This document shows, piece after piece, positions 17,045-35,337 of a DNA stretch of 42,486 bases. The position numbers and the translations under genes are program-made. Below the pieces are notes generated by a model. It was not told the DNA's origin, did not search any database, and was given only the letters and a program-made list of their open reading frames with translations. Every line of letters starts with the position of its first letter. The first letter of the stretch is position 1. This stretch comes from a virus. Location of the stretch: the IMG/VR virus record IMGVR_UViG_3300047497_000282, positions 1-42,486 of that record; one strand, 5' to 3'.

Positions 17045-17073
17045 GCGATTCAAGGCCGGCACAGGGACGCATA
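17045..17073 (+). promoter_or_regulatory. Late element copy 1: GCGATTCAAG...CATA
   Basis: GCGATTCAAGGCC at 17045-17057, then CATA at 17070-17073, i.e. positions 26-29 counted from the first G. The same two boxes at the same spacing precede 21906, 28394 and 35338. A 6-bp hairpin (ACCTCG...CGAGGT, 17079-17096) follows before the ATG at 17102. Confidence 0.6.
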
Positions 17074-17101
17074 GAACCACCTCGACACAACGAGGTCTGA
17101 T

Positions 17102-17284
17102 ATGTGCAGCGCACCCACCGTCCCGACCACCCCGGTACGACAGCCCACCCAGTTGCCTGATGGTGGCTCACCTGCGGTAGGCACCGATCCGTTGGCATGG
17201 CGGCGCGCTATCATGGCGGGGATGGCGACCAGTCCGCAAGGCGTGCTCGGTTCGCCGAACGTGGGCAAAGCCACGCTTGGCTAA
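17102..17284 (+). CDS. Small conserved protein ahead of portal
   Basis: 60 residues starting MCSAPTVPTTPVRQPTQLPD, then DPLAWRRAIMAGMATSPQGV and ending KATLG. Proline-rich lead, single conserved Cys after Met, and a C-terminal TSPQGVLG...TLG end are typical of a small protein found next to T7/BPP-1-type portals. It may be a minor head or portal-associated peptide. It overlaps the portal frame by eight bases. Confidence 0.7.
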   Translation: MCSAPTVPTTPVRQPTQLPDGGSPAVGTDPLAWRRAIMAGMATSPQGVLGSPNVGKATLG

Positions 17285-19004
17285 AGTCCCTGCCCCGATG
17301 ACCGGGCCGGTAAAGCAGCCTGATCGCAGCCCAGATGCCGACATTCGCAAGCACTGCGAAATGCGGCTCGGGATGCTCAAGTCCGTGCGTGTCGATTACG
17401 AGGCCGAGGCCGAACAGATCGCCCGGTTTGCCCAACCGGCACGATCGCGGTTTCTGCACAACAGCAAGGACAAGAACGGGCCACGTCGTCGGCGCTGGAA
17501 CAGCACCTTGTTCGACCCGCATGGCATCGAAGCGTTCCGGACACTGACCAACGGCATGACCTCAGGCCTGTCGAGCGCATCGCGGCCGTGGTTCAGTCTC
17601 AACATGGCCAACGAGGATCTGATGGAGGCGCCTGGCGTGCGGCCATGGCTGTCCGAAGTCGAGCGCCGGATGTACATCTTTTTCGCGACCACCAATTTCT
17701 ATTCGGCGGTCAAGTCCGGTTACGGCGAAATGGGGCTCTTCGGCACAGAGGGCTGTGTCATGGTGGAGCATGCCGTGGTGGGTGCGGTCTGCCATGCCCT
17801 GACGTTCGGCGAGTACTGGATCGGTCTGTCCGATACCCTCGCACCCGACACGCTCTATCGAATCTGTCCGATGAGCGTGAAGCAGGCGGTCGAGACATTT
17901 GGCGACCGTGTTTCGCGGACTGCGCGCGGTCTCTACGACCGAAGCAATTACGATGCCGGGATCGAAATCTATCAGGCGATCGAACCTGATCCGGATTACG
18001 ATCCTGCCAAGTTTGCCTCGAAACCATGGCGTTCGGTTTACTGGGAGACGATGGGCGACAAGTCGGATTCGTTGCTCAAGTTCTCTGGGTACAATGAGCA
18101 ACCGTTCTGGGCACCACGCTGGGATGTGATCGGTGGGGATGTCTACGGGACATCACCGGGAATGGAGGCTTTGCCGGCGCTGCGCGAATTGCAGATGCAG
18201 GCCAAACGCCGCAACGAAGCGATCGACCAGATGGTCAAACCGGAGCGCATCGCGCCGCCCGGTGTAACGCTGACGGGTCAGCCGGGCAACATTGTGTCGG
18301 CGTCTGGCGTCGATGCCGGCAACTTCGTGGTGCCCTATCCGATGCCATATCAGGTCGTCGCGGCAATCGGCGAGGAGCGCGACAAGTGCAAGCAACAGAT
18401 CGATGGCCTCTCGTTTGCCGATCTGTTCAACGCGATCACCAACATGGCCGGCATCCAGCCGCGCACGGTCGAGGAAATCGCCGCGCGCAACGAGGAAAAG
18501 CTGACCCAGCTGGGCCCGGTGATCGAACGCGTCGCCAATGAAAAGCTGCAAGTCGCGATCGACCGTGCCTTTGCCATCCTGAACCGTGGTCAGTTGCTGC
18601 CGCCACTGCCGCCTGCGCTGCAACAGAACGGTGGTGCGCATATCAGTGTCGAGTTTGTGTCGATCCTGCAACAGATGCAGCGCATGGTCGGGTTGGGCCA
18701 GATCGAACGTGTCACTGGGTTTGTCGGCAACCTTGCCGCCGTGCATCCCGAAGTTCTGGACCTCGTGGACTTCGATCAGACGATTGACGAGTACGGGTAT
18801 CGTGCTGGATCGCCGGCCCGGATGCTGCGTGACGCCGATGCGGTGGCGCAGATCAGGCAGCAGCGCGCAGCGGCACAGCAGCAGCAACAGAGCCTTGCCG
18901 CGCTGGCCCCGGTCAAGGATGGCGCGCAGGCCGCACAACTTCTGTCGCAGGCTGATATGGGCGGCGGCACCAACCTGTTGCAGAAAATCGCGGGGTCGCC
19001 GTGA
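17277..19004 (+). CDS. Portal protein (T7-type head-tail connector)
   Basis: 575 residues if begun at TTG 17277; the first ATG is 17298 (568 residues), and neither has a clear ribosome site. Family features: an N-terminal helix LKSVRVDYEAEAEQIARFAQ, RWNSTLFDPHGIEAFRTLTN, GMTSGLSSASRPWFSLNM, GYGEMGLFGTEGCVMVE, and a Gln-rich C-terminal tail (AAAQQQQQSLAAL). This is the head-tail connector of podoviruses. A dodecamer forms the DNA gate at one capsid vertex. The stop overlaps the next gene's GTG. Confidence 0.92.
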   Translation: MAKVPAPMTGPVKQPDRSPDADIRKHCEMRLGMLKSVRVDYEAEAEQIARFAQPARSRFLHNSKDKNGPRRRRWNSTLFDPHGIEAFRTLTNGMTSGLSSASRPWFSLNMANEDLMEAPGVRPWLSEVERRMYIFFATTNFYSAVKSGYGEMGLFGTEGCVMVEHAVVGAVCHALTFGEYWIGLSDTLAPDTLYRICPMSVKQAVETFGDRVSRTARGLYDRSNYDAGIEIYQAIEPDPDYDPAKFASKPWRSVYWETMGDKSDSLLKFSGYNEQPFWAPRWDVIGGDVYGTSPGMEALPALRELQMQAKRRNEAIDQMVKPERIAPPGVTLTGQPGNIVSASGVDAGNFVVPYPMPYQVVAAIGEERDKCKQQIDGLSFADLFNAITNMAGIQPRTVEEIAARNEEKLTQLGPVIERVANEKLQVAIDRAFAILNRGQLLPPLPPALQQNGGAHISVEFVSILQQMQRMVGLGQIERVTGFVGNLAAVHPEVLDLVDFDQTIDEYGYRAGSPARMLRDADAVAQIRQQRAAAQQQQQSLAALAPVKDGAQAAQLLSQADMGGGTNLLQKIAGSP

Positions 19005-19357
19005 TCAAACTGGACCGCAGGGATGCCGAACACCTGATCGCGCAACCTGAATTTTTGCGGTTCCTCGGTGCTGCGATTCAAGCCGCCGGCATCTTGGGTC
19101 ATCACGGGGCTGCCAATGGGCAGCTAACGCGTGATCTCGGCCATTTCGAGGGGCGCCGCAGCCTGGGGTTCGATTTGCTTCTGATGGCCCACAGCGGCCA
19201 GCCAGAGGCGATCCGCGCGGCTGATCCAACGGGAATGACGACCCTGACCAGTGCGCTTCGATCCGTTCTCAACCCCAGTCCCACAGGAAAGCCCAATGAC
19301 CGACGCAATCGTGACACCGCCAGATACGCCACTCTCGAACCAGACACCGACGCCTGA
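19001..19357 (+). CDS. Bbp19-like head protein
   Basis: 118 residues from a GTG in a GTGA overlap with the portal stop. The core (QPEFLRFLGAAIQAAGILGH, then HFEGRRSLGFDLLLMAHSGQ) has the conserved F-x-R-F-L...F-x-x-G-R-R-x-x-G pattern of Bbp19-like phage proteins, found between portal and scaffold in BPP-1 relatives. The last ~20 residues overlap the scaffold gene in a different frame (62 bases). Exact role in head assembly is not known to me. Confidence 0.75.
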   Translation: MIKLDRRDAEHLIAQPEFLRFLGAAIQAAGILGHHGAANGQLTRDLGHFEGRRSLGFDLLLMAHSGQPEAIRAADPTGMTTLTSALRSVLNPSPTGKPNDRRNRDTARYATLEPDTDA

Positions 19358-19955
19358 TGCGGCGCCGGCTGGCGACGGAACCGTATTGGGCGGCGCGCAA
19401 GAAGCGAACCCGGCATCGCCCGCAGCCGATCCGGCCCAGACCGACCCCAACGCGCCCGCTGATCCCGCCGCGCCGGTGCTGCCGGAAAAGTACGAATTCA
19501 CCGTCGAAGGCTTTACCCCTGATCCGGACATCCTGACCGCAGCTGATCCGGTCCTGCGCGAACTGAACCTGACCAACGAACAGGCCAACAAGCTGGCGCC
19601 ACTGGCGCAGTCGATTGTCGAAAAGACTACGGCCAGTCTGGTGCAGCAGCTTCAGGCCGGCGCGGCTGTGCAGAAGAAGGCATGGCTTGATGCCTTTACC
19701 GCCGATCCGGAGATCGGTGGCACCAACAAGGCGCAGACCGAAGTGCTGGCAGCCAAGGCGCTTGATGCCTTGGGCTACACCAAGGGCCACCCGTTTCGCC
19801 AGGCGCTGAACGACAGCGGGTTCGGTAACCACCCCGACATGATCCGTGCCTTTCGCCGGCTGGGTGAAATGGTGGGCGAAGACAACAGCTTTGCCCGCGC
19901 CGGTGTCGGACACGCCGACAAGCCTGTTTGGGAGCGCATGTACCCCAACGGCTGA
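19296..19955 (+). CDS. Capsid scaffolding protein
   Basis: 219 residues from ATG 19296, with AGGAAAG eight bases upstream. Residues 1-75 are disordered and rich in Pro, Ala, Asp and Thr. The rest is helical: LTNEQANKLAPLAQSIVEKT, AWLDAFTADPEIGGTNKAQT and the C-terminal FGNHPDMIRAFRRLGEMVGE. This low-complexity acidic lead plus helical end just before the capsid gene is typical of podoviral scaffolds, which guide prohead assembly and then leave. Confidence 0.85.
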   Translation: MTDAIVTPPDTPLSNQTPTPDAAPAGDGTVLGGAQEANPASPAADPAQTDPNAPADPAAPVLPEKYEFTVEGFTPDPDILTAADPVLRELNLTNEQANKLAPLAQSIVEKTTASLVQQLQAGAAVQKKAWLDAFTADPEIGGTNKAQTEVLAAKALDALGYTKGHPFRQALNDSGFGNHPDMIRAFRRLGEMVGEDNSFARAGVGHADKPVWERMYPNG

Positions 19956-19995
19956 TGAAACAGCCCTACGGGGCGTCAATTGAAAGGCAAGACCA

Positions 19996-21015
19996 ATGGC
20001 AATTCTCGGATTTTCGTACTGGAACCTGATCGACGTTCTGAAACAGCAGAACGACGGCATCGGCGATGTGGTCGAGGCATTGACCAATCTGACGCCGTTC
20101 ATGAAGGACGCCAATGTCGTCACCTGCAACAGCGGGACGGCGCATCGTGTTTCGATCCGCACCGGGCTGCCCTCGGTGTCATGGGGCGCGCTGTATCAGG
20201 GCATCGTGCAGTCCAAGGGCAATTACACCGAGGTCAAGGACGAGACCGGCTTCGTCGAAGGCTTGTCCAGCGTCGACGAGCGCCTGCTTGCGCTCAAGCC
20301 GGCCGAATCCGCCAAGTTGCGGCTGGTCGAAGGCAATGGCTTTCTGGAATCGATCGCCCAAACCGTGGACGGCGCGATCTGGTATTCGGATGTCAAAATC
20401 GCCGGCAAGCAGTTCCATGGCCTGTCGCCGCGCTACAATGCTCTTGCGAACTACAACGTGATCAGCGGCGGCGGGACCGGCTCGAACAACGCCTCGATCT
20501 GGTTCGTCACCCACGGGGATGCGCAAACATCCATCATTGTCCCCGAAAACATCCCGGCGGGTGTCCAGCGCGAGGACATGGGTCGTCAGCGTGTCCTCGA
20601 CGCCAACAACAACCCGTTCTACGTCAAGGAAGAAAAGTTCACCCAGCATGTCGGCCTGACCGTGAAAGACTGGCGCTACAATGGCCGCATCGCCAATATC
20701 GACGTGCCCAGCGTGATCGCCGGTACGGTAGCGCTCAACCCGCTGATGCGGCATATGTTCTACCGTCTTCAGGGACGCCGTGCCTACCTGATGCAGGACA
20801 AGCCCGGCCAGATGCATCCCGGCAATACCGTGATCTACATGAACCGGACTCTGATGGAAGCGCTCGACGCCGAGGGCACCAACGCGCGGCCTGGCTTCGA
20901 CAACTTCATTCGCCTGGTGCCGATGGAGATCCAAGGCGAAACTGTCCAGACGTGGCGCGGGATGCCGATCCGCGAGACCGATGGGTTGCTCAACACCGAA
21001 ACGCTGGTCTCGTGA
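19996..21015 (+). CDS. Major capsid protein (Bbp17-type)
   Basis: 339 residues with AAAGG upstream. It begins MAILGFSYWNLIDVLKQQND. Family features include RVSIRTGLPSVSWGALYQG, FVEGLSSVDERLLAL, the AIWYSDVKIAGKQFHGLSPR segment, and FYRLQGRRAYLMQDKPGQMH. The overall plan fits the HK97-fold capsid of BPP-1-like podoviruses. Directly after the scaffold and before the cement protein, as in that group. A long plus-strand frame over the same DNA (19980-21026) is arginine-rich and spurious. Confidence 0.9.
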   Translation: MAILGFSYWNLIDVLKQQNDGIGDVVEALTNLTPFMKDANVVTCNSGTAHRVSIRTGLPSVSWGALYQGIVQSKGNYTEVKDETGFVEGLSSVDERLLALKPAESAKLRLVEGNGFLESIAQTVDGAIWYSDVKIAGKQFHGLSPRYNALANYNVISGGGTGSNNASIWFVTHGDAQTSIIVPENIPAGVQREDMGRQRVLDANNNPFYVKEEKFTQHVGLTVKDWRYNGRIANIDVPSVIAGTVALNPLMRHMFYRLQGRRAYLMQDKPGQMHPGNTVIYMNRTLMEALDAEGTNARPGFDNFIRLVPMEIQGETVQTWRGMPIRETDGLLNTETLVS

Positions 21016-21042
21016 TCGCGCGCTGAACGAAAGGACAAGACG

Positions 21043-21486: not shown

Positions 21487-21677
21487 TGGCCCGCTATCGC
21501 GCAACGCAGCATATCGCTCACGGCGTGAAGGGCATGCTTGAGCCCGGCACCGAATTCGACTGCGACATGCCTCCCGGTGATGCGTGGGAGCCGCTCGATG
21601 ACGAGGCGAAGGCCAAGGTGAAGGCTCTGGCAGATGCCAGGGCCAAAAAGCCCGAGATTCCCGTCAAGTTGACCTGA
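21486..21677 (+). CDS. Small hypothetical structural-region protein
   Basis: 63 residues. The start overlaps the region of the cement gene's stop. It has a short beta part (MARYRATQHIAHGVKGMLEP, GTEFDC) and a lysine/alanine-rich helix (DEAKAKVKALADARAKKPEI). The N-terminus resembles small domains in head-completion proteins, but I do not recognise a defined family. Last gene before a terminator. Confidence 0.65.
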   Translation: MARYRATQHIAHGVKGMLEPGTEFDCDMPPGDAWEPLDDEAKAKVKALADARAKKPEIPVKLT

Positions 21678-21778
21678 TCCGCGCATTCTGGGGTATGCGC
21701 GTTGACTTTTACCTCCGAAACCCGCAGGAATCCGGCGCTCATAGCAAAAATCAGCCGCGGTATCGTCGCGGTCAATGG

Positions 21779-21818
21779 AGCCCGGAGATGGTGGTACATC
21801 TCCGGGCTCTTTGCTTTT
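21779..21818 (+). terminator. Strong intrinsic terminator after head genes
   Basis: Perfect 12-bp stem: AGCCCGGAGATG (21779-21790) pairs with CATCTCCGGGCT (21797-21808) across the loop GTGGTA, followed by CTTTGCTTTT. It ends the packaging/head transcription unit. Late element copy 2 begins 49 bases beyond it. The rest of 21678-21905 shows no gene. Confidence 0.9.
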
Positions 21819-21866
21819 GGCACGAATCCTTAGGCGGGGGCTTCGGTTCCCGCCCATTCCTGTCGC

Positions 21867-21895
21867 GCGATTCAAGACCGGGCAGGCGCGGCATA
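21867..21895 (+). promoter_or_regulatory. Late element copy 2: GCGATTCAAG...CATA
   Basis: GCGATTCAAGACC at 21867-21879, CATA at 21892-21895. It directly follows the terminator and precedes the gp11-like gene, whose ATG lies 39 bases after the first G with no evident ribosome site. Same internal spacing as the other three copies. Confidence 0.65.
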
Positions 21896-21905
21896 TCCAT
21901 GGCTC

Positions 21906-22601
21906 ATGGCCAGCCTGATCGACTGTTGCAACCGGGCGCTCGCCGAGATCGCTGCCGGGTCCATTTCAAGCCTCAGTGACGGCTCGATGGAATCGCGTGA
22001 GTGCAACCGCTTTGCGCAAGCGCTGGTTTCGGAAATATCGGGCTGGCACGAATGGGGCTGGCAGATCGTCAACGTCGCGCTGGCCGAAGTGCCGAACGAT
22101 CGCAGGCACGAATGGCATCATGCTTATGGCCTGCCATCGGACATGGAGCGCCCGCTGTGTGTCCGTGATCATCACTGCTACGCGGAAGGAGGTGATCAAA
22201 TCTCGCTGCCGGAGGGGGTGTGGGTTGATGTCGAGCGGCACAGGTTTCCGGTGCGCGGCAACTTCCCATTCCCGGCGCAGGACGCTTCACCGGTGGCCTA
22301 TATCATCGAAGGCGAGGCCCTTTATACCAATGCTCGCGACGCCAGGCTGCACTACTTCAAGGTCATTACCGACATCGGCCAGTGTCCCCCACAGGTAGCC
22401 CGGGCATTCGAGTTGCAGCTTGCCGCAAGGATCGCCTTGCCGCTCAAGAAAGATGCGCAACTGGCCGCCGCGATCAACCAGCAGGCCGAACTGGCGCGGC
22501 AGCGGGCCATTGCCGATGACATCAATCGCCATCCCCGACCGCCGGCTATTTTCACCAGTGATGCCGCCTATGCGCGCACCGGACAGTCCGACTGGCTATG
22601 A
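21906..22601 (+). CDS. Tail adaptor protein (T7 gp11-like, tubular protein A)
   Basis: 231 residues: MASLIDCCNRALAEIAAGSI, SRECNRFAQALVSEISGWHE, WGWQIVNVALAEVPNDRR, and ALYTNARDARLHYFKVITDI. The opening (NRALA.IG...I.SL.E.S.E...C) and helical body with the C-terminal QLAARIALPLKKDAQLAAAI match podoviral tail tubular protein A, which joins the portal to the nozzle. No ribosome site is visible; an upstream out-of-frame ATG lies at 21899. Confidence 0.85.
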   Translation: MASLIDCCNRALAEIAAGSISSLSDGSMESRECNRFAQALVSEISGWHEWGWQIVNVALAEVPNDRRHEWHHAYGLPSDMERPLCVRDHHCYAEGGDQISLPEGVWVDVERHRFPVRGNFPFPAQDASPVAYIIEGEALYTNARDARLHYFKVITDIGQCPPQVARAFELQLAARIALPLKKDAQLAAAINQQAELARQRAIADDINRHPRPPAIFTSDAAYARTGQSDWL

Positions 22602-23275: not shown

Positions 23276-25095
23276 TGGGCTCCGCGCGAGTCTATAAATT
23301 CAATGTCCCCTATGCTGGGGCTGATGTCGGGGATCTGAGTTATACCCAGACCACGGACACGATGTATCTGGCACACCTGTCCTATCCGCCATCGAAGATC
23401 GTGCGGGCCGGTTCGACATCATGGACATTCCAGACCCTGACGTTCGGATCAACGCAGGTGCCTCCGACAGCACCAACCGCGACGGCGACCACGCCGAACA
23501 ATGGTGGATCGGTTGGTCTCTATGATGTTTCGGCTGGTTATGTTGTCACCGCCGTGGCGACGCAGACCCAGGTCGAAAGCGTTGCAACAGCGCCGGTTAC
23601 GGTGTCGAACGACCTGACCTTGCAGGGCAACATCAACACCATTAGTTGGACCGCGCCTGCCGGTGCAACCAGCACCACGACCTATTACAACGTCTACAAG
23701 ACCACGGTGAACGGGTTCTATGGGTTCGTCGGATCGACCACGAACACGACATTTACCGACGACAATATCGGTCCGGATTACAGCCAATCCCCTCCACAGA
23801 ATGTCAATCCGTTCGCGACAGCCGGCAATTATCCTTCATCGGTCACGCTGTTTCAGCAGCGGCTGTTCTGGGCTCGCACCACGAACGCGCCCAATGGTTT
23901 GTTCTCGTCACGCGTCGGGGGCGCCGATCTGGAAAATCTGAACCGGTCTACCCCGTTGCGCGCCGACGACAGTATCGACACCGCGATCTTTTCCGGGCAG
24001 GCGACGAACATCAATTCGTTGACCAGCACCAGCTATCTGCTCGGGCTGGCATCGGACGGTGTTTATGTCATTGATGGAGACGGCAACGGTGGTCCGATCT
24101 TCGCCAACAGCGGGCCGTCGATGCGCAAGCAGGTCGGACGCGGTGCGTCCCGCTTGCCTGGAATCGTTGCTGACTCCGTGGTGTTCTACTGCCCGGCGAT
24201 CGGCAACAGTGTCCGGACGCTGGGCTTCGATTACACCGTCGATGGTCTCAAATCGAACGATGTCTCGATTTTCTCACCACACCTGTTCGAGGGATTCTTG
24301 ATCGTGTCGTGGTGCTATCAGCGGGAGCCGCGTTCGATCATCTGGGCGGTGCGCAATGATGGCATACTGCTCTGCTTCACGTGGGAGGAAGGCCAAGGCG
24401 TCTGGGGTTGGACGCGATGTGACACCGATGGAACCGTGCTTTCGGTCTGTTCGATCAGCGAGAACGCAGAGGACAGTGTCTACCTGATCGTGGAGCGCGT
24501 GATCAATGGTGTGACCAAGACCTATGTCGAGCAATTGGCCTCGCATCTCTGGACCGATGTCAAACAGACCTGTTTCGTTGACTGCGCGGTTACGGCAACA
24601 TTCACGACGCCGGTTTCGAGCGTGTCCGGGCTCTGGCACCTTGATGGGGCGACCAATGTTGCCGGGATCGTTGACGGTGTTCCGGTGTCGGGCCTCACGG
24701 TCACCAATGGCGTTGTTGATCTGCCGGCGTCGATCGGCACCGGTTCGGTTATCACGCTGGGCCTGCCATTTGAGGTCGAAGTCCAGACGCTGCCGATGCG
24801 CCAGACCTTGCCCAATATCGGCTCCAACATCGGACGGATGCAGCAGGCCGCGCAAGCCGTTCTGACCGTGCTGAACACCAGCAATCTGAGCGTCGGCATC
24901 AATTCCGGCCAGACGTTTCCATGGCGTCCGACCGATGACCAGATGTGGGATAATGCGACCGGGCTGTTCACCGGCGATAGCGTCGTGACGCTGGACAACA
25001 AGGCGCACAACCAGGTCTCGCTTTACATCAACCAGACCGCCGCGGCGCCGCTGACGCTGCTTGGTGTTGCCCTCGATCTGGATGTGACGCAATGA
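23275..25095 (+). CDS. Tail nozzle protein, C-terminal part (T7 gp12-like)
   Basis: 606 residues, starting in a TGATG overlap with the preceding gene's stop. It opens VYKFNVPYAGADVGDLSYTQ, TTDTMYLAHLSYPPSKIVR, which in relatives continues straight from the N-terminal part. Then come an Ig-like insert (SWTAPAGATSTTTYYNVYKT), FQQRLFWARTTNAPNGLFSS, and the late beta-propeller-like segments IIWAVRNDGILLCFTWEEGQ and GWTRCDTDGT. Together the two parts give ~831 residues, a normal nozzle size. Either re-initiation at TGATG makes a two-chain protein or this is a recent frameshift. Confidence 0.82.
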   Translation: MGSARVYKFNVPYAGADVGDLSYTQTTDTMYLAHLSYPPSKIVRAGSTSWTFQTLTFGSTQVPPTAPTATATTPNNGGSVGLYDVSAGYVVTAVATQTQVESVATAPVTVSNDLTLQGNINTISWTAPAGATSTTTYYNVYKTTVNGFYGFVGSTTNTTFTDDNIGPDYSQSPPQNVNPFATAGNYPSSVTLFQQRLFWARTTNAPNGLFSSRVGGADLENLNRSTPLRADDSIDTAIFSGQATNINSLTSTSYLLGLASDGVYVIDGDGNGGPIFANSGPSMRKQVGRGASRLPGIVADSVVFYCPAIGNSVRTLGFDYTVDGLKSNDVSIFSPHLFEGFLIVSWCYQREPRSIIWAVRNDGILLCFTWEEGQGVWGWTRCDTDGTVLSVCSISENAEDSVYLIVERVINGVTKTYVEQLASHLWTDVKQTCFVDCAVTATFTTPVSSVSGLWHLDGATNVAGIVDGVPVSGLTVTNGVVDLPASIGTGSVITLGLPFEVEVQTLPMRQTLPNIGSNIGRMQQAAQAVLTVLNTSNLSVGINSGQTFPWRPTDDQMWDNATGLFTGDSVVTLDNKAHNQVSLYINQTAAAPLTLLGVALDLDVTQ

Positions 25096-25547
25096 CGGTG
25101 CGAATCGTCCCTGCGGCCTATAGCCACGTCAACCGTCTGGCACGGGACATGCGGGCCATTGACCGCGCGGAATGCCTGGCGATGGGGCGTACGCCAAAAC
25201 AGGCGCTGCGGCATGGCATCATGGCGAGCGCGTGGGTGCGTACCGCGCTGGTCGATGGCGAGCCGCAGGCGATGTTTGGCGTCGTGGTCGAATCCGCGAT
25301 GACGGGGGATGGGATACCGTGGTTTTTGGGCACCGATGCGGTGTTCAGACATGGCCGAGACCTGATCCGCATGGGCCCTGCGATCCTGCGCGACATGGGC
25401 GATTCAAGCCGCATGCTGCGCAATCTAGTGTCCGCCGACAATGCCAAGGCGATCCGGTTGCTGAAACGCTGGGGTTTTACCGTTGATCCCGAGCATGTCC
25501 GCGTCGGCGGCTTGCCGTTTCGTCGGTTTGAAATGGAGTTCGGTTGA
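25092..25547 (+). CDS. Gp13-like virion/assembly protein with GNAT fold
   Basis: 151 residues: MTVRIVPAAYSHVNRLARDM, then MASAWVRTALVDGEPQAMFG, PWFLGTDAVFRHGRDLI and SADNAKAIRLLKRWGFTVDP. The last segment is the typical acetyl-CoA-fold C-terminus (N..A.RLL.R.GF). It matches the T7 gp13-like family, which has a GNAT fold and is needed for virion core assembly; acetyl transfer has not been shown to matter. Overlaps both neighbours by ATGA. Confidence 0.8.
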   Translation: MTVRIVPAAYSHVNRLARDMRAIDRAECLAMGRTPKQALRHGIMASAWVRTALVDGEPQAMFGVVVESAMTGDGIPWFLGTDAVFRHGRDLIRMGPAILRDMGDSSRMLRNLVSADNAKAIRLLKRWGFTVDPEHVRVGGLPFRRFEMEFG

Positions 25548-26113
25548 TGTGTGCGCCCATTATCGGTCTGGCCGCAGCGGGCATCAGCGGTGTTCTTGGC
25601 ACCGTCGCCAAAGTGCAACAGGATCAGGTACAGGCGCAAGTTGCGGACCAGAACGCGGCGGCTGAGCGGGCAGCGGCTGCTCAGGACCAGACCAACATGA
25701 ACCAGGCCGCGTTGCAGCGGTATATGCAGATCAGCCAGACCGAAGGCCAGCAGCGGGCGACACAGGCGGCAAATGGGGTTGTGGTGGATTTTGGGACTGC
25801 CAAGGAGCAGGTTTCGGACACCGCGTTGCTGGGCTCGATGGATGTGAACAAAATCTATCAGACCGGATTTCAGGCGCAGCGCGGTCATGATGTCGCCATT
25901 GGCAATGACGTGGCGACGGCCCGCGCGGCGCGATCGAACGCGGTTCTGACCGGAATCGCGGGGGGCTTTGGGGCGGCGGCCAGCTTTCTTGGCGGCGCCA
26001 ACCAATACGGTATGCTGGCATCGAAATTCGGCATCCCGTCTGGCGCATCTGGCGCGACCAGCAATTTCGGCATGTCGAATGGTGCCGGTGCCATGGGCGG
26101 GGCGTTCGGCTGA
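25544..26113 (+). CDS. Internal virion core protein (T7 gp14-like)
   Basis: 189 residues. An N-terminal hydrophobic Gly/Ala segment (IIGLAAAGISGVLGTVAKV) precedes a long Gln/Ala-rich helix (QQDQVQAQVADQNAAAERAA), then GVVVDFGTAKEQVSDTALLG, and a Gly/Ala-rich C-terminus with possible membrane-inserting stretch (GIAGGFGAAASFLGGANQYG). This layout fits the gp14-like ejection protein that enters the host outer membrane at infection. Confidence 0.85.
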   Translation: MMCAPIIGLAAAGISGVLGTVAKVQQDQVQAQVADQNAAAERAAAAQDQTNMNQAALQRYMQISQTEGQQRATQAANGVVVDFGTAKEQVSDTALLGSMDVNKIYQTGFQAQRGHDVAIGNDVATARAARSNAVLTGIAGGFGAAASFLGGANQYGMLASKFGIPSGASGATSNFGMSNGAGAMGGAFG

Positions 26114-28353
26114 TGCCCACAGTACCGCTCTACAGGCCGGACCAGAACTGGGTTCAGCCCAATGAGGCGCAGTTGCGCGCGCCGGATATTTCGAGCGGGC
26201 TTGAGGCGGTTTCGCAGGGGCTGGGCCATGTCGCCGATGTGACGAACCAGATTGTCCAGATGTCGAGCGAGACACAGGCGCGGGCTCAAGCGTTGCAGGA
26301 CAGTCAGGCACTGTCGAAACTGACCGCGCAATATCAGACCTTGCAAGGGCAGAATGCCGTCGATGCGCAGGCTGATACCTTGAAGCAGATCAAAGCGCTT
26401 CAGGATCAGGGCATGGCGTCGATGGGCACGCCGCTGATGCAGCGCTATTATGTCCAGCACGCGGCACCGATTTTTGCCGGGGCGAATGATGCGGTCTATG
26501 GCCATGCGGTGCAGCAAACGCATGTGGCTTTTGGAAACCAGTTGACGGCGGAACGCAGCGCGGCACAGGACACAGTGGCGGGTCTTTATCAGGACGTTGA
26601 CAAGTTGGCAGACGGTCTTGGTGTCGTTGCGGACAAAGCCCGCTCAGAAGCGATTTTTCAAGGTCTCGGCGATCCCAATGGGGACGCGGTAAGGGAATAC
26701 GTCAAGAACAAGACCGGCGAGGTAATCAGTGGTGCAATCCATAATGCCTTGTCGAGCGATGTCACGGCGGACGGCAAGAGCGGGGTCGATCTCGCGATTG
26801 ATCTGAACAATCGGTTTGGTGGGGACAAGCTGCCGTTCGCCATTCAGCAGCAAGTCGAGGCTGCGATGAAGGAGCCCTTGCTGAACCGTGAGGCTGCGGC
26901 CTATGTGGCTGCGGCGAAAAACGGCACCGCATTGCCCGTCAAAGGCGATGACGGACATTGGATTATTCCTCCGTCCGATCCTACGGCGCAAGGCGATGCT
27001 CCAAGTTCCGATACAGCGTCCCCCGGCTTCCAAATGCCGGTGGCTGGGAAGATCGGCCAGACCGTCGCACAGCATAAAGCACGCGGCTCAGAGGGTATTG
27101 ATATTCCGGTCCCGCTTGGAACGCCTGTCAAAGCGCCAGCGCAGGGAACAGTTGCGAGAACGGGCTATGATCCGCGTTCCGGAAATTTCGTGGTCATCGA
27201 CCATCCGGACGGCAGCACGTCAACGCTTGCGCACTTTTCGAATGTGCAGGTCAAGCCCGGCGATCAGGTCAACGCAAACACCGTGCTGGGCGCCTCGGGC
27301 CAATCCGGTGATGCGACCGGACCGCATGTCCATTGGCAATTGATCGACAAGAACGACAAATATGTTGATCCGGCGTCAATGGTTGGCGGCAAGCCGGGCG
27401 CTGTTGCGGCGGTGACATCGCCGGGCGGTCTGGTGGTCCCGGACGAAGCAAAGGTGCTGGCCAATATTGATGCGATGAATCTGCCGCCTGAAATGGCTAC
27501 GCGGGTCAAGGCGCTGGCCTCGCAACAGTTCAAGCAGGCGCGCACGGCGGAAACCTATCAGTTTGAGCAAGCAAGTCAGAATGCGACGGAATGGGTAGCA
27601 AATTGGGCGCTGGCGCACAACAACGAATACCCGCCTGCCACGGCGATCCCGCCTGCGATCCTGAACAAGATGCGCCCGGACGAGGCTGCGGAGTTGCAGT
27701 TGCGGGTCAACAAGGCGCGCGAGGGTGATATCGACCAAGCGCAAAGTCAGGCACAATCGAAGCGCTACGCTGATTTGCAGGTCATGCGGTATGCCGATCC
27801 TGATCGTTTCCTCGCCATCAATCCAAAGGATTTGATCGGGCAGGTGAGCGCAGGACAATGGAACGAAATTCGCGTCACGCAGGCGCAGATGCGCGCCAAA
27901 GACGACAAGGAACCGAAAGCCTGGGACCCATACAAAGGGGCGTATCAGGCGTTCGCGACTTTCCAGAAATTGGCGCCGGAAGTGCTTCCGCCGGCGATGG
28001 CCAAGACCGATCCAAACGGATATGCGCAGAGCCGTGCCGCTCTGCTCGAAGGTGTGCGGACCGGTGCTGAGGCGCTTTCCAAAGCCAACGGCGGACGCGC
28101 GCCGACGCCTGTTGAATGGCAGGCGCTGGTGCGCAATGCAGCGTCTATGGTTTCGACTCCGAAGACGTTTTTCGGTATTCCGACCGGGACGACCCAAAAA
28201 CCTGCGTTCGCGATCAAAGCCAGTGAAATTGACAAGCCGACGCGCAAGACGATCATTGCGGGCTGGCGCGCATCACATCCTTCTGATCCGACCGATGCCG
28301 ATATTGTTGAAGCATACCAGAGGCTGCACGCGCTCAGGGCTTTGCGCCAGTAG
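26113..28353 (+). CDS. Internal virion protein (gp15-like) with embedded M23-type domain
   Basis: 746 residues. The N-terminal ~290 are Gln/Ala-rich helices typical of podoviral ejection proteins. Residues ~305-415 form an M23 (lysostaphin-type) peptidase-like domain: GIDIPVPLGTPVKAPAQGTV, VVIDHPDGSTSTLAHFSN and GPHVHW, with Asp330, His374, His405 and His407. The usual first zinc ligand, four residues before the Asp, is Ser326 instead of His, though His321 is close by. The C-terminal ~330 residues are again helical. It would form part of the periplasm-crossing channel and may cut peptidoglycan during entry. Confidence 0.82.
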   Translation: MPTVPLYRPDQNWVQPNEAQLRAPDISSGLEAVSQGLGHVADVTNQIVQMSSETQARAQALQDSQALSKLTAQYQTLQGQNAVDAQADTLKQIKALQDQGMASMGTPLMQRYYVQHAAPIFAGANDAVYGHAVQQTHVAFGNQLTAERSAAQDTVAGLYQDVDKLADGLGVVADKARSEAIFQGLGDPNGDAVREYVKNKTGEVISGAIHNALSSDVTADGKSGVDLAIDLNNRFGGDKLPFAIQQQVEAAMKEPLLNREAAAYVAAAKNGTALPVKGDDGHWIIPPSDPTAQGDAPSSDTASPGFQMPVAGKIGQTVAQHKARGSEGIDIPVPLGTPVKAPAQGTVARTGYDPRSGNFVVIDHPDGSTSTLAHFSNVQVKPGDQVNANTVLGASGQSGDATGPHVHWQLIDKNDKYVDPASMVGGKPGAVAAVTSPGGLVVPDEAKVLANIDAMNLPPEMATRVKALASQQFKQARTAETYQFEQASQNATEWVANWALAHNNEYPPATAIPPAILNKMRPDEAAELQLRVNKAREGDIDQAQSQAQSKRYADLQVMRYADPDRFLAINPKDLIGQVSAGQWNEIRVTQAQMRAKDDKEPKAWDPYKGAYQAFATFQKLAPEVLPPAMAKTDPNGYAQSRAALLEGVRTGAEALSKANGGRAPTPVEWQALVRNAASMVSTPKTFFGIPTGTTQKPAFAIKASEIDKPTRKTIIAGWRASHPSDPTDADIVEAYQRLHALRALRQ

Positions 28354-28354
28354 G

Positions 28355-28383
28355 GCGATTCAAGGCCTCGGCCCTACGGCATA
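28355..28383 (+). promoter_or_regulatory. Late element copy 3: GCGATTCAAG...CATA
   Basis: GCGATTCAAGGCC at 28355-28367, CATA at 28380-28383, immediately after the stop of the preceding gene. The ATG at 28394 is 39 bases from the first G, as in copy 2. TAGGGC...GCCCTA around box 1 can form a 6-bp hairpin. Confidence 0.6.
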
Positions 28384-28393
28384 GGTAGGCGCC

Positions 28394-31300
28394 ATGGCCA
28401 ATCCTACCCTCAATGATGCTGATCTGCTCGCGCAATCCTATCGTGATGAGCAAATCCAGTCTTTGCGCCAGACGATCACCGATGCACCGCATCCCGATAG
28501 CGTGGCGACATCGAACCGGATAGCGCCGCAACTCGGATTGCCGCCGTCACAACTCGATAACATCCACGATCAGGCCCAAACCGCGATCCGTGCGCAAAAC
28601 ATGGCCGCCGTTGCGCAGGCACATCCCACAATCGGGACATGGGCGGCAGCAAACCCGCGTCAGGCCGTGGCTGCATCGGATGATCACAAGTCGCTGGGCA
28701 TGCTCGGGCAGGCGTGGGACTCGATCAAGAACGCTGCTGGTTCCCTGTTCACCAGCACGGCAGCGGTCAATCCGCTTGTGCTTGGCGGGGCGCTTCTGAG
28801 CAGCATCGAGCGCGCGACCGGTTATGCGCCAGGCGATCTGACCAAAGCAATCCAGGCTCCGGTTGATAAGACGGTCGGCGGCATCGTCGGCGGTGTGGCC
28901 AGTGTCGATCGCATGATCGCGCGGCGCACTGGTATTGGCGATCCGCAATCGGTGGATCAGGACCTTGCCGATGCGTCGGCGCAGTTCAAGGCGGCGGGAA
29001 CGTCGATCGCGGCATCACAGCAGGCCCATGGCAATCTCTCGTCGGTGCTTGGCCTCGCGGGCGGTGTTTTGCCGTATGCCGCTACTGGCGGATTGGCTCC
29101 CCTTGCGATGGGCGCGAGCGGTGCTGATGAGCAGGCAGACGCAGCAGCAAAGGCCGGAAAATCCGGAACTGCGGCCAGCGATGCCGGCATTATCGCAAAC
29201 GCGGCATACCAGGCCACCGTGGGCCATGTGTTCGGCCTTCTGGGCAAGTATGGCGCCCCAATGGTTGGAGACGCCGTAGCGGGTGCTGTGGGCCGCTCCA
29301 TGGCGCGCACATCGGGCGGGTCGCTGACTGGCAATATCCTCGGACAGGCTGCAACGGAGGGTTCGGGAAAACTGGCCGACTATGCCACGCGCATGATCGG
29401 GTCTGCTGGCCTTGGTGCGGGAATGTCGGTCGGGTCCAATCTGATCACGCAACAGACGATCAATCCGAAACAGTCGATCATGGACGGAGCAGGCGAAAGC
29501 GCGATGTCGATGGTCGCGCTTGATATGTTGACGCACGGATTGCATGCGGCCCTGGGCGGACATGACGCGGCGCAAGGTGATCCAACAGCCAATCTGACGC
29601 AGACGGGCCGCGCAATCCTGCCGGGTATCACGCGGGCCCTGGGCGGGCTGCATGATGCCTCCATTCTTGATGCGATGGACAGGGCGGCATCTGACAGCAA
29701 GTTCAAGACCCGCGATCCCGATGGCTATACCGCGCTGGTCAAATTTCTGGCCGATCAGCATGGCGTCGATAACGTCTATGTCTCGCCCGATGCGATCCGC
29801 GCCTATCAGCAGTCCGGTGGGTACGACCGGTTCAACGATCCGTTCCAAGCCCACGAGGATGCCATTCAGGAGGCGCAGGCGACGGGTGGTGAGGTCGCAT
29901 TGCCTGCCGAGTTCGTCATGGGCGATCTGGCCGGAACCGGTGCTTACAAGGCGATCAAGGACAGCGTGCGGTTGCGCCCCGATGGCATGACGGGCGCAGA
30001 GGCGAAAGACACGCTGAACAAGATTGACCAGGTTGCAAAAGACACGTTCGACAAGCTGAACGAACAGGACCGCGCCGGGCAGAAGGAACAGGATGCGCGC
30101 GCCGATTTGACGAAACAGGCTCAGGAGAAATTCCAGAACGCGGGCTTCACCCCGCACGTTTCGAGCATCTATGCGCAACTGGTCGCGCAACGCTATTCGA
30201 CGCGGGCAGAGCGGCTTGGCAAGACGTTGGAGCCCGGCGACTTCGACACGCGCATTGTCCGCGTCCTGCCGCCGTCTCTGGAAGCTGCGCGCAAAGCCGA
30301 CAATCTCGATCTGGCGATCAATGCGATGCGCAAGGGCAAGCCGGCTGAGACACAGGGCGGAAAGAGCCTGTTGCAGTTCATTGCTGATCGCGGTGGCATC
30401 AATGACAGCGGCGGCGATCTGAAAGCAATGGGTGCGGATGCTTGGCACCGTGAGCAGCCGGGCCGCAAGAAGCTGATCCGCGATGAGGCAAAGGTCGATC
30501 CGATGCGCGCGGCCGGGGATGATCTGCGCCGCATGATAGAGAATGAGGGGCGCGATCCCTCTGGCATGTCGGACAAGGAAATTCGCAAGTTTGTCGAGGA
30601 GAAGGCGAAAGAGCCTATGCCGGGTGGGCGTTCGCTCGATCAGGTTGCATATCATGGTTCACCACATATCTTCGATCGCTTTTCGCTTGAACACATCGGT
30701 GAAGGTGAAGGAAACCAAGCGTATGGTTATGGCCTATACTTTGCCGGCAAGAAAGCAATTGCTGAGCATTATCGAAAAATGCTGGCTGGAAAGCCACAGT
30801 ATACGGCAGATGATTACAAGGAGTATTTTAAGCCTGGGCGTATCATAGATGGATATAGCGGCAAAGATAAAGTTGTCGCATTCCATGAGGGTGCAAAAAA
30901 TGAGCCATGGAATTGGTCTGTCGATGTCCAGCGCGTCGATGCAAACGGCGAGCCTGCTCAGGGCGAGCGGGTAAGAAACCACACCACGCGCCCTACCGAC
31001 AGGGAAATGCATAAGGTTCTGGGCCATGCGCCCACCGTCGCGCCAGGCCGTCTTTACCACGTCGATATACCGGACGATCATGAGTTTTTGAATTGGGATA
31101 AGCATGTCGCCGGTCGTGATCGTGATATTTTTATCAAAGCATTCGACATGCTCGGATCAGACAATTGGCGCGCCAAAGATATGGCCGATGCCCTAAAGTC
31201 TAATAACGACATAACCGGCGGGGAGGCTTACAAGATGCTCGTCAAGGCGATCGGTGCATCGCGTTCAAAGCTCGATGGCATTGTCTCTGATCCGTTTGGA

Positions 31301-34300
31301 AGAACTGACCAGATCGCGTCAGAGTTGCTCCATAATGACGGCATAGCAGGGGTAAAATATCTCGATGGAAGCTCGCGCGACAATGGCGAAGGATCGCACA
31401 ACTATGTCGTGTTTGACGATAGCCGCGTTTCGATAAAATCCTATGAGCAATCGAAAGTGGGTGACGATACGCCACGCGGCCAAATCAAAATGCCCGTCGA
31501 TGGCTGGGGCTCAGGCCCGGCGACAATCGAACTGTTCGCCAAAGCCAACCTGTCAACGCTGCCCCATGAACTCGGGCACCAGTGGCTTGAGGAACTGCGC
31601 TTCGATGCACAGCATCCCGATGCCAGCCAAAGCCTGAAAGACGATTGGGCCACGGTGCAGAAGTGGTTCAAGGACAACGGGCATCCGGTCGAAGGCGATA
31701 CGATCCCGACCGATGCCCACGAACTGTTTGCACGGGGTATCGAGCGCTATCTGATGGAGGGCAAAGCGCCGACCAAAGCGATGGACGGCATATTCTCGAA
31801 AATTCGTGGCTGGATGATCAACATCTATAAGACCGTCAAAGCGTTGGGCGCTCCGATCACCCCGGAAATTCGGCAGGTGTTCGACCGGCTGATCGCCACT
31901 GATGACGAAATAAACGCCAAGGAAAGTGGGCTCGCGATCAAATCCGGGTTCGATGACCTGGCCAAGATCGGCATGTCGGAGGCTGAGGCCAAAGCCTATA
32001 CCGATCTGACCAACAGCGCGCGCGACGAGGCGAACTCTGATCTGCTGGCTAAGACCATGGCCACGATCCGGCGCCAGCATACCACAGCGTGGAACGAGGA
32101 GCGCAACGGGGTCAGGGCAGAGGAGGCGGCGCGGCTTGAAGAAACGCCACTGCTTTCGGCTATCCGGCTGATGAAGGAAAACCCGGTTGACCGGGAATGG
32201 ATCGTTGACCGGATGGGCGAAGATGCGCCGGGGCTGCTGCCGAAAAGCAACCGGGCACTCGTCAGGGATGGTGGCGCGCATCCGGACGATATCGCCGAAA
32301 TGGCTGGGTACAGTTCGGGCGAGGAAATGCTTCATGCCCTGATGGGCGCCGAAAAGGCCAGCCGCGATGCGAAGGCGTCGGGCGACAACCGGACATTGCG
32401 CAATCGTCTGATCGATCAGGCGACCGATGCGGAAATGGCGCGGCGGCATGGCGACGATCCGTTCAGCGATGGCGCGATCGAAAATGAGGCGATCCAAGCC
32501 GTCAACGAAAAGATGGGCGGCAAACTGCTCGATGCGCAACTGAAGTTCCTGGGCGCGAAATCCGGGAACGTCGCGGCGCTTTATTCCATCGCCCGGACAT
32601 GGGCTCGGGAAAAGGTACGTAGCGGGGTTATCGCCTCTGAGGCCATGGCGAGTGCGGTGCAGCGCCATACCCGGGCGGTGGCGAAAGCCGGGCGCGAAGC
32701 AGAAAAGGCCATCCTTGCCGGCAAGTGGGACGAGGCGTTCAAGGCGAAACAACGGCAAATGTTGGCATCGGCGCTGCTGGCCGAAGCGCAGGATGCCCAT
32801 ACCGAAGTGAACAAGGCGGCCGATGCTCTTGCAAAAATCGCCAAGCGCAAGACGATGGCCAGTGTCGATCAGGATTATCTTGATCAGGCCCATGCGCTGC
32901 TTGATGATGTTCAGCTCGGACCGCGTTCGCAGAAGTCGATCGACCGTCAGGGCAAATGGGCGGACTGGGCAGCGGCGCGCGCGGCTGAGGGGTTTGATGT
33001 GGTCGTGCCCGCGTCGTTTGAGGCCACATTGAAAGGCGAGCATTGGACGCGCCAGACCGTCGAAAACTTCCTGGCGCTCAAAGATGCCGTCGATCAGGTC
33101 ATGCACTTGGGCAAGTTGAAGCAGTCGCTGTTGGATAATCAGGAACAGCGTACCTGGGATTCGATTTACAGGGAGGCGGAGAACGCTGCCGGCCATATCG
33201 ATGGTCCACCGCCGAAGTCGATGGCTGATCTGCATTCACCCGGCGCGCTCGATATGGTCAAGCATGGTCTTGCCAGCGCCGATGCGCAATTGTTGCGCAT
33301 GGAGACCGTCTTTGATTGGCTCGATGGTCACGATCCAAACGGCGTTTTCAACCGCATCGCGTTCAAGCCTATTGCCGAAGCGCAGGCTCGCGAACACGTC
33401 ATGATGAAGGACTATATCGATGGTGTCAGAGAGCGCATGGAAGCGGTTCCGGCAGAGGATCGGGCGCGCTGGGATGATCGATTGACAACGCCATGGACTG
33501 ATACCCGCATAAATGAGCCCATGGTGCTGACGCGGCAACAGGCTATCGCGATGGCACTGAACGTCGGCAACGAAGGCAACCTGCAACGCCTGACCGATGG
33601 TTATCATCTGAACGAAGGCGCTGTGCAGCAGTGGTTGAACGACACCCTGTCACCCGGTGAATGGCAGTTCGTGCAAAGCATCTGGGACCATATCGGCACG
33701 CTCTGGCCGCAGATTGAGGCGCTGGAAAAGCGGGTCAACGGGGTTGCGCCAGACAAGGTTGAACCGCGCTCGTTCGACACGCCGCATGGTACCATGCGCG
33801 GCGGTTACTACCCGGCGATCTATGACAGCAAGATCGACACTCGGTCGGAAGCCAATGCGGGCAAAGCGGGTGATCTGCTGGAAGCGAAATACACCCGGGC
33901 CACCACACGCGCCAGCGCGACCAAGGAGCGGTCGGATCAGGTGACCGCGCCGATCCTGCTCGATCTGGGCGTTATCAACCGACACTTGGCCGAAGTGATC
34001 CACGACATCACGCACCGCGAAGCTGTTATGCAGGCATGGCGGTTTCTGGGCAGCGAGAGGGTGCAGAACGCCGTCAAGACTGCGTTCGGACCGGAATACG
34101 CGAAGCAGTTTCAGCCCTGGGTCAAATCGGTTGCCAATTCGATGGCGATGGATCGCGCGGGCAATGAAGGGTTTGGCGCATTCCTTCGCCGGGCACGGAT
34201 GAATGTCACGATGGTTGGGCTTGGGCTCAGGGCAACTACGATGTTTGTCCACACCACCGGGCTCGCTGCCGGGGCTCAGGTGATCGGCGAAAAGGCAATG

Positions 34301-35278
34301 GCTCATGGTCTGGCAGTCATGGCCCGGAATCCATCGGCAGCGATCAAGACTGTTCTTGATGCGTCGGCGGAAGTGCGCAGCTATCTTGAACACTATGAGC
34401 GCGACATCGGCACGATGATCGACAGCATGGATAGCAAGCCCGCGACGAAAGCGAAGCAGCTTATCCATGACGGCCAGAAGTTCGCGCTGTATGGGATCGG
34501 GTGGATGGTGCAACGAACCTCTGTCCCGGTATGGATCGGGGCTTATGACAAGGCGATCAGTGAGGGCATGGCGCACGAAGATGCGATATTCGCGGCTGAC
34601 AAGGCAGTGCGCTATTCGCTCGGTGCTGCGGCCCCGAAGGACCTTGCGGCGGTGCAACGATCGTCCGGCAAGTGGGGCGAAGCGATCAAGATGCTGACCA
34701 TGTTCTATACGTCCATGGGAAGCCAGTACCAGCGTCAACGGACGCTTGCGCGCGACGTTGGCGGTAGCGACAGCAGATCGGTGCGAGACCCTGCCAAATT
34801 GGCGTCCAGAGCGTTCTGGGGCGTTGCCATGGTTCCGCTGTGGGATGCTGTCATTCGGATGGCGATCGGCGGCCAGGGGCCGGACAAAAACGAATGGTGG
34901 TCCACTTGGCTGGCGAACAAGATGGTGTCGAACATGCTGGCGCCGATCCCCGGTATCCGCGATCTGATCGAACCGGCATTGAACAAGGTCGAAGGTCACT
35001 ATTCACGCAATCCGTCGATCACGCCATTGCAGGGCATCTATGACAGCGTGTCGAAGTCTCTCGATGATGCCGGCGCCATCATTCACGGCAAGCCGACCAA
35101 GAGCCTGACCAAGGACACGCTCTCGACGGCGGGCTACATCACTGGTCTCGTGCCCGGGCAGGTCGCGTCGGCTGCGCAATATCTGGTCGATGTCGGCAAC
35201 GGGTCTGCGCATCCCGATTCCGTGAAGGACTGGATCAATGGCCTTTCGTTGGGCCATGAGGTCAAGCATCCCCGCTAG
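28394..35278 (+). CDS. Giant ejection protein with ART-like and zincin-like domains
   Basis: 2294 residues, in the place of T7 gp16. Residues 1-740 are Ala/Gly-rich helices with membrane-active-looking stretches (ATGGLAPLAMGASG, GSAGLGAGMSVGSNL). Residues ~750-1010 form an ADP-ribosyltransferase-like domain of the polyvalent-protein type: VAYHGSPHIFDRF (His754), YGYGLYFAGKKAIAEHY (Tyr782), and the end GIAGVKYLDGSSRDNGEG then SHNYVVFDDSRVSI. A zinc metallopeptidase-like domain follows: HELGH at 1058-1062 with DAHELFARG (Glu1110) as likely third ligand. The remaining ~1150 residues are long helices. It is probably injected with the DNA. The ART segment looks lower in GC than its flanks. Confidence 0.85.
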   Translation: MANPTLNDADLLAQSYRDEQIQSLRQTITDAPHPDSVATSNRIAPQLGLPPSQLDNIHDQAQTAIRAQNMAAVAQAHPTIGTWAAANPRQAVAASDDHKSLGMLGQAWDSIKNAAGSLFTSTAAVNPLVLGGALLSSIERATGYAPGDLTKAIQAPVDKTVGGIVGGVASVDRMIARRTGIGDPQSVDQDLADASAQFKAAGTSIAASQQAHGNLSSVLGLAGGVLPYAATGGLAPLAMGASGADEQADAAAKAGKSGTAASDAGIIANAAYQATVGHVFGLLGKYGAPMVGDAVAGAVGRSMARTSGGSLTGNILGQAATEGSGKLADYATRMIGSAGLGAGMSVGSNLITQQTINPKQSIMDGAGESAMSMVALDMLTHGLHAALGGHDAAQGDPTANLTQTGRAILPGITRALGGLHDASILDAMDRAASDSKFKTRDPDGYTALVKFLADQHGVDNVYVSPDAIRAYQQSGGYDRFNDPFQAHEDAIQEAQATGGEVALPAEFVMGDLAGTGAYKAIKDSVRLRPDGMTGAEAKDTLNKIDQVAKDTFDKLNEQDRAGQKEQDARADLTKQAQEKFQNAGFTPHVSSIYAQLVAQRYSTRAERLGKTLEPGDFDTRIVRVLPPSLEAARKADNLDLAINAMRKGKPAETQGGKSLLQFIADRGGINDSGGDLKAMGADAWHREQPGRKKLIRDEAKVDPMRAAGDDLRRMIENEGRDPSGMSDKEIRKFVEEKAKEPMPGGRSLDQVAYHGSPHIFDRFSLEHIGEGEGNQAYGYGLYFAGKKAIAEHYRKMLAGKPQYTADDYKEYFKPGRIIDGYSGKDKVVAFHEGAKNEPWNWSVDVQRVDANGEPAQGERVRNHTTRPTDREMHKVLGHAPTVAPGRLYHVDIPDDHEFLNWDKHVAGRDRDIFIKAFDMLGSDNWRAKDMADALKSNNDITGGEAYKMLVKAIGASRSKLDGIVSDPFGRTDQIASELLHNDGIAGVKYLDGSSRDNGEGSHNYVVFDDSRVSIKSYEQSKVGDDTPRGQIKMPVDGWGSGPATIELFAKANLSTLPHELGHQWLEELRFDAQHPDASQSLKDDWATVQKWFKDNGHPVEGDTIPTDAHELFARGIERYLMEGKAPTKAMDGIFSKIRGWMINIYKTVKALGAPITPEIRQVFDRLIATDDEINAKESGLAIKSGFDDLAKIGMSEAEAKAYTDLTNSARDEANSDLLAKTMATIRRQHTTAWNEERNGVRAEEAARLEETPLLSAIRLMKENPVDREWIVDRMGEDAPGLLPKSNRALVRDGGAHPDDIAEMAGYSSGEEMLHALMGAEKASRDAKASGDNRTLRNRLIDQATDAEMARRHGDDPFSDGAIENEAIQAVNEKMGGKLLDAQLKFLGAKSGNVAALYSIARTWAREKVRSGVIASEAMASAVQRHTRAVAKAGREAEKAILAGKWDEAFKAKQRQMLASALLAEAQDAHTEVNKAADALAKIAKRKTMASVDQDYLDQAHALLDDVQLGPRSQKSIDRQGKWADWAAARAAEGFDVVVPASFEATLKGEHWTRQTVENFLALKDAVDQVMHLGKLKQSLLDNQEQRTWDSIYREAENAAGHIDGPPPKSMADLHSPGALDMVKHGLASADAQLLRMETVFDWLDGHDPNGVFNRIAFKPIAEAQAREHVMMKDYIDGVRERMEAVPAEDRARWDDRLTTPWTDTRINEPMVLTRQQAIAMALNVGNEGNLQRLTDGYHLNEGAVQQWLNDTLSPGEWQFVQSIWDHIGTLWPQIEALEKRVNGVAPDKVEPRSFDTPHGTMRGGYYPAIYDSKIDTRSEANAGKAGDLLEAKYTRATTRASATKERSDQVTAPILLDLGVINRHLAEVIHDITHREAVMQAWRFLGSERVQNAVKTAFGPEYAKQFQPWVKSVANSMAMDRAGNEGFGAFLRRARMNVTMVGLGLRATTMFVHTTGLAAGAQVIGEKAMAHGLAVMARNPSAAIKTVLDASAEVRSYLEHYERDIGTMIDSMDSKPATKAKQLIHDGQKFALYGIGWMVQRTSVPVWIGAYDKAISEGMAHEDAIFAADKAVRYSLGAAAPKDLAAVQRSSGKWGEAIKMLTMFYTSMGSQYQRQRTLARDVGGSDSRSVRDPAKLASRAFWGVAMVPLWDAVIRMAIGGQGPDKNEWWSTWLANKMVSNMLAPIPGIRDLIEPALNKVEGHYSRNPSITPLQGIYDSVSKSLDDAGAIIHGKPTKSLTKDTLSTAGYITGLVPGQVASAAQYLVDVGNGSAHPDSVKDWINGLSLGHEVKHPR

Positions 35279-35279
35279 C

Positions 35280-35308
35280 GCGATTCAAGCCCAGCCCCCG
35301 ACCCCGTA
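35280..35308 (+). promoter_or_regulatory. Late element copy 4: GCGATTCAAG...CGTA
   Basis: GCGATTCAAGCCC at 35280-35292, CGTA at 35305-35308 (CATA in the other three). It starts two bases after the TAG of the giant gene and leads into the tail fibre gene at 35338. Confidence 0.55.
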
Positions 35309-35309
35309 A

Positions 35310-35333: not shown

Positions 35334-35337
35334 CCGC

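Follow-up and report, generated by a model that had tools for sequence, protein, structure and literature searches.

The DNA analysed here (42,486 nucleotides, IMG/VR record IMGVR_UViG_3300047497_000282; hereafter, the window) carries a short sequence that recurs ahead of several late genes, and the question arises as to what this repeat does and by which protein it is read. The phage of the window is temperate and belongs to the Epsilon15-type podoviruses; its terminase is about 50% identical to those of Epsilon15-group phages, and an integrase is encoded at the window's left end. To our knowledge, late-gene switching has been little studied in phages that infect sphingomonads, as in those of most other alphaproteobacteria. 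An exact search of both strands of the window located the 10-mer GCGATTCAAG on the plus strand only, at positions 17045, 19073, 21867, 25399, 28355 and 35280. The pattern GCGATTCA-N19-TA was found five times, always on the plus strand, whereas shuffling predicts 0.03 occurrences, and five or more occurrences were obtained in 0 of 100 shuffles. An earlier note on this DNA had named four copies (17045, 21867, 28355 and 35280) with a second box, CATA or CGTA, at positions 26–29 counted from the first G, which was confirmed in the window sequence, and had considered the two copies inside genes to lack a full second box. This was correct for the copy at 19073..19082 (plus strand), which lies in coding sequence (AIQAAG), has no TA at positions 28–29 and was rejected as a promoter, but not for the copy at 25399, which has TCTA, with TA at positions 28–29. 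The window contains five elements, that at 25399 included.

Element 1 (17045..17073, plus strand, as are all elements described here) consists of box 1 at 17045–17053 and CATA at 17070–17073, with a predicted transcription start at 17084; it is followed by a leader with a GAGG Shine–Dalgarno sequence and, from an ATG at 17102, by a small gene preceding the portal gene. The same position carries an element in 35 of the 39 portal-bearing loci examined. Element 2 (21867..21895) has its predicted start at 21906, which is the A of the ATG of a tail protein gene (21906–22601), and its orthologous sites in eight relatives (G001, G002, G003, G006, G009, G030, G031 and G041) likewise have ATG at position 40. 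The strong terminator reported ahead of this copy is real, being an intrinsic terminator on the plus strand at 21777..21810 (stem −31.4 kcal/mol, z −5.9). Element 3 (28355..28383) has a predicted start at 28394, again the A of an ATG, here of a gene for a 2294-aa virion protein, and the homologous giant gene in three relatives (G002, G034 and G041) also has its ATG at position 40. Element 4 (35280..35308), the copy with CGTA, has a predicted start at 35319, upstream of the ATG at 35338 of a tail-fibre type gene; orthologous sites were found in G002, G003, G009 and G028. The four copies do lie in gaps between genes, although the description of these gaps as sizeable does not suit elements 3 and 4, whose gaps of 40 and 59 bp are barely promoter-sized. 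The giant gene downstream of element 3 (28394–35278), predicted to be leaderless, belongs to a family of unknown function, phrog_9880. Its product has low-identity relatives in BPP-1-type and Caulobacter phages; as a query for related IMG/VR loci it yielded none by that method, and relatives were found in genomes.

The internal late promoter element (25399..25427) lies inside gene 25092–25547, has a predicted start at 25438 and would serve genes 25544–26113 and 26113–28353. In the reading frame at this place, the codons that spell the two boxes, TCA and CTA, are retained in 13 phages, whereas in the late genes TCA makes up 7% of serine codons and CTA 3.3% of leucine codons; phages without an element at the equivalent place use different codons there. 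Since retention of rare codons is hard to explain by the protein sequence alone, the copy at 25399 is likely to be functional.

Conservation of the element was assessed in relatives identified by a portal-protein search, which yielded 52 loci from viruses and 10 from genomes, the latter belonging to Novosphingobium and other Sphingomonadales. Many Epsilon15-like podovirus prophages, including several Novosphingobium ones, keep the element despite their distant relationship, and the box with its spacing recurs there before virion genes, tied to gene starts. The consensus of 140 non-redundant sites, which were chosen by pattern and include some chance matches, was GCGAT[T/C]CAA-N16-C-N-TA-G, with fixed spacing; the informative positions were 1–9 (GCGAT[T/C]CAA), 26 (C), 28–29 (TA) and 30 (G), and then 40–41. 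The DNA between the boxes, described as unconserved from the window copies, is so over all 140 sites. Upstream of the small gene preceding the portal gene, the element is present in essentially all close relatives, and the 16 bases between its boxes vary freely. Among 313 distinct 60-mers from the relatives' loci, each beginning with G[C/G]GAT[T/C]CA, TA started at position 28 in 76, and each of the other offsets at which it was present accounted for 1 to 16, mostly fewer than 10; the exact gap to C-N-TA was found in 68 sites, and other gaps in 0–5. In 18 phage contigs, 75 sites were on the plus strand and 1 on the minus strand, with 3–6 per phage, and reversed-pattern controls gave counts near zero. 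The phage of Novosphingobium sp. Leaf2, with a portal about 63% identical, has the element at the same four genes as the copies of the earlier note, its first copy having a degraded second box, CGCA; it should be noted that CGCA replaces CNTA in the first copy of two phages, which counts against the promoter reading proposed below. A scan of IMG/VR with the leaderless pattern found two or more sites together in at least 20 contig stretches, whereas the shifted-spacing control gave none among the matches listed; most of the single matches listed, in AT-rich contigs, look like chance. Thus, comparison reveals two conserved halves at fixed spacing, associated with one strand and with gene starts, and the earlier proposal of a new late promoter class is strongly supported by the bipartite layout, the fixed spacing, the strand bias and the place before virion genes in many diverged phages.

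The second half of the element can be compared with the sigma-A promoters that have been mapped in the sphingomonad Zymomonas mobilis, which consist of TTGNNN, a 17-bp spacer and TANNNN without a conserved T at −7, have a 6-nt discriminator and in some cases give leaderless transcripts (PMC7566282). The element is similar in its TANNNN, the T of which lies 12 nt before the ATG or A at position 40, in its unconserved −7 position, in the 17-bp spacing and 6-nt discriminator and in its predicted leaderless transcripts; it differs in that GCGAT[T/C]CAA stands in place of the −35 TTGNNN, positions 5–10 being T[T/C]CA[A/C]N, with C rather than G as the third base. When the sigma-A layout is placed on the element, positions 28–33 become the putative −10 hexamer, positions 34–39 the discriminator and position 40 the predicted start. 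The boxes had previously been read as CATANN at positions 26–31 for the −10 and GATTCA for the −35; TANNNN at positions 28–33 and TTCAAN are the better readings, and the start estimates made with those shifted registers were 5 nt too far upstream.

The same start position follows independently from the register of start codons. ATG stands exactly at position 40 in 46 of the 140 sites (p about 2 × 10−54), and in the 94 sites without ATG there, base 40 is A in 38 (p about 5 × 10−6). A Shine–Dalgarno-like sequence occurs upstream of the ATG in merely 3 of the 46 sites with ATG at position 40 and after position 38 in 42 of the other 94. Leaderless messages are common in alphaproteobacteria, 375 having been reported in Caulobacter (PMC4117421). 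In copies 2 and 3 of the window, the ATG lies 39 bases past the first G, that is, at position 40, as had been noticed before; the suggestion that these messages are nearly leaderless gains support from the exact register in relatives, and leaderless messages starting at 21906 and 28394 are predicted. Inverted repeats around the Shine–Dalgarno sequence were observed upstream of the first late gene in the window (17079–17096) and in loci L018, L040 and L009; these repeats follow closely after the box and persist from phage to phage, although their sequences vary. With the predicted start at position 40, their 5′ arm would be upstream of the transcript.

These comparisons strongly support reading the element as a putative new class of promoter within a general kind already known, in which a host −10 is combined with a phage box replacing the −35. 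The element is almost certainly a late promoter belonging to the phage itself, and we consider it quite probable that this promoter is used by host sigma-A polymerase together with a phage winged-helix activator on box 1. Promoter activity, the start site, the use of sigma-A, activation rather than repression and contact between protein and box are all inferred here from DNA and protein comparison. Under the proposed mechanism, the element would serve as late promoter throughout a large clade of Epsilon15-like podoviruses, which are temperate and infect sphingomonads and related bacteria. The housekeeping sigma of host RNA polymerase would read TANNNN at positions 28–33, with transcription from position 40, and the upstream half, GCGATTCAA, at −39 to −31, would take the place of the −35 element. 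After early transcription has produced it, the winged-helix protein encoded at 12662–13132 would bind box 1 and recruit or stabilise the polymerase. In about one-third of the copies, the ATG would be at +1, giving leaderless messages, and others would have an 18–20 nt leader carrying a Shine–Dalgarno sequence. Because each of several late units has its own copy of the promoter, no single long antiterminated late transcript would be needed. Since box 1 overlaps the −35 hexamer, the protein would have to displace sigma region 4 or touch sigma in an unusual manner.

Among the nearest known systems are the middle promoters of T4, which work by sigma appropriation: a small DNA-binding protein of the phage recognises a MotA box that accompanies the host sigma-70 −10 (PMC2988021). 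Both systems have, beside a host −10, a phage-specific box of 9 bp that is not palindromic and substitutes for the −35. However, the box here lies at −39 to −31, whereas that of T4 is centred at −30, and their sequences are unrelated; the candidate reader here is a LexA-like winged helix, whereas MotA is a double wing; and the genes concerned here are late virion genes of a temperate podovirus.

The candidate for reading box 1 is a LexA-like winged-helix protein of 156 aa (12662..13132, plus strand), the predicted activator, which occurs in every element-bearing phage whose sequence covers the region. Among the 11 near-complete element-bearing phages, the families present in all 11 are virion genes, antisense shadows of these and the winged-helix gene, which is the sole non-virion family common to all. 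Among 39 loci, both the element and the gene were present in all 35 that had the element and enough upstream sequence, 2 had the gene with a degraded second box, 2 had neither, and none had the element without the gene. Gene and repeated element are both absent from E15, BPP-1, Caulobacter phage Jess A, Cobetia phage Carin1 and a Paracoccus prophage, which share the virion genes; in Epsilon15/BPP-1 podoviruses (Uetakevirus, Rauchvirus), the genes for terminase, portal, capsid and tail are homologous to those of the window and similarly ordered. This co-occurrence could partly reflect the common descent of the clade. Within a phage, the box variants co-vary (as strongly in 0 of 2000 shuffles), and box differences track winged-helix divergence beyond portal divergence in a Mantel test, which corrects for tree structure only in part (partial r 0.475, p 0.0005). 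In more distant phages, the element is either unchanged or altered in concert: the box reads GCGATCCAA in one group of Novosphingobium prophages and GGGATTCAC or GCGATTCAC in a second group, and CCGATTCAA and TCGATTCAA occur in still other phages. The winged-helix domain was modelled by AlphaFold with pLDDT >90, its nearest domain is the LexA DNA-binding domain (1lea, TM 0.75), and its Pfam and PDB matches belong to LexA/MarR-type families. Thus, box 1 is probably read by this phage-encoded protein, and activation is favoured by the poor −35 match, the positions of the late genes and the analogy with T4 MotA. The involvement of an activator, already suspected in the earlier note, is therefore supported; of the two winged-helix genes put forward there, that at 12659 is conserved with the element, whereas that at 10326 (ORF 10281–10646) falls outside the conserved families. 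ORF 10281–10646 also encodes a LexA-like winged-helix protein, one distantly related to the predicted activator.

It is conceivable that an alternative sigma or an ordinary factor of the host reads this promoter and that the winged-helix gene is a mere fellow traveller. The strictly fixed spacer in a −35/−10 bipartite layout is typical of a sigma factor, and the −10 agrees with the host sigma; however, box 1 differs in a concerted manner (GCGATTCAA, GCGATCCAA, GGGATTCAC) among phages of a single host genus, Novosphingobium, and its variation follows the winged-helix protein and not the portal. Furthermore, the host genomes searched hold 0–2 element matches outside the prophage region, which is the chance level, and a canonical sigma-70 scan flagged 0 of the 5 window sites. 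We consider this explanation unlikely.

That the winged-helix protein might instead be a repressor acting on box 1, keeping late genes silent in the lysogen while the promoter is otherwise a plain host one, accords with the temperate nature of the phage and with the fold of the protein, whose resemblance to repressors of the LexA and MarR types also counts against an activator. The −35 (TTCAAN, TCCAAN), however, matches TTGNNN poorly, so the promoter should be weak unaided. The usual location of late activators is where the early/middle block ends, immediately ahead of the terminase genes. The winged-helix gene, the last conserved one directly upstream of the terminase genes, appears to end the rightward early/middle block rather than to lie in a repressor region. 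Repression is thus very doubtful.

Still less credence can be given to box 1 as a GcrA/CcrM site, in which GATTC would be a GANTC methylated by host CcrM, with GcrA and sigma-70 activating. GATTC occurs in 113 of the 140 sites, and the phage encodes a DNA methylase (PF01555, 1393–2385) whose closest solved structure is the GANTC methylase CcrM. Yet an entire phage group has GATCC (27 of the 140 sites) and no GANTC, with unchanged architecture; the extended GcrA motif is YGAKTCK (PMC7987155), and CGATTCA has A where the final K (G or T) is required; and the methylase gene is not conserved across element-bearing phages. The most speculative proposal concerns the GATTC-box phages, in which gating by GANTC methylation could link late expression to replication. 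A single-subunit phage RNA polymerase was rejected, as the giant 2294-aa protein is absent from the element-bearing G027 and G029 and the families shared by 11/11 phages are those named above; the different polymerase specificity suggested previously is less likely than host sigma-A with an activator, which remains the preferred reading.

Another comparable system is GafYZ, phage-derived activators of the Caulobacter gene transfer agent promoter, where GafY acts far upstream with IHF (PMC11150451). Both cases would involve phage-derived activators of a virion gene cluster in an alphaproteobacterium with host RNA polymerase; however, GafYZ serves one promoter with antitermination by GafZ, whereas here the box lies at −35 and is repeated before several units. 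The promoter is not described in the literature searched, and a text search with the 9-mer gave no relevant paper among the matches listed. Likewise, comparison with named phages gave no match for two winged-helix homologues (tblastn) or for the right part of the window, 28300–42000 (megablast), and no Rfam family matched the window. We lean towards a new activator family, in which a LexA-fold monomer would act on a 9-bp box replacing the −35 at several dispersed sigma-A late promoters paired with leaderless starts. The model predicts five start sites to the base in one phage and names a candidate activator, and the pairs of box and protein variants would form a natural specificity set. The element pattern offers a means of locating units of virion genes in prophages that lack annotation. 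If true, the exact fusion of start codon and promoter would have virion proteins routinely translated from leaderless messages, which would be unusual.

Two further features were observed in this part of the phage. The early region encodes a GapR-like nucleoid protein domain (10643–11104). An IS1595-family insertion (13151–14919) separates the winged-helix gene from the gene for the terminase small subunit, with a transposase on the minus strand (13306–14223) and 20-nt imperfect terminal inverted repeats (13151–13170 and 14900–14919); in this prophage, the insertion may interrupt early transcription that reads through into the terminase genes.
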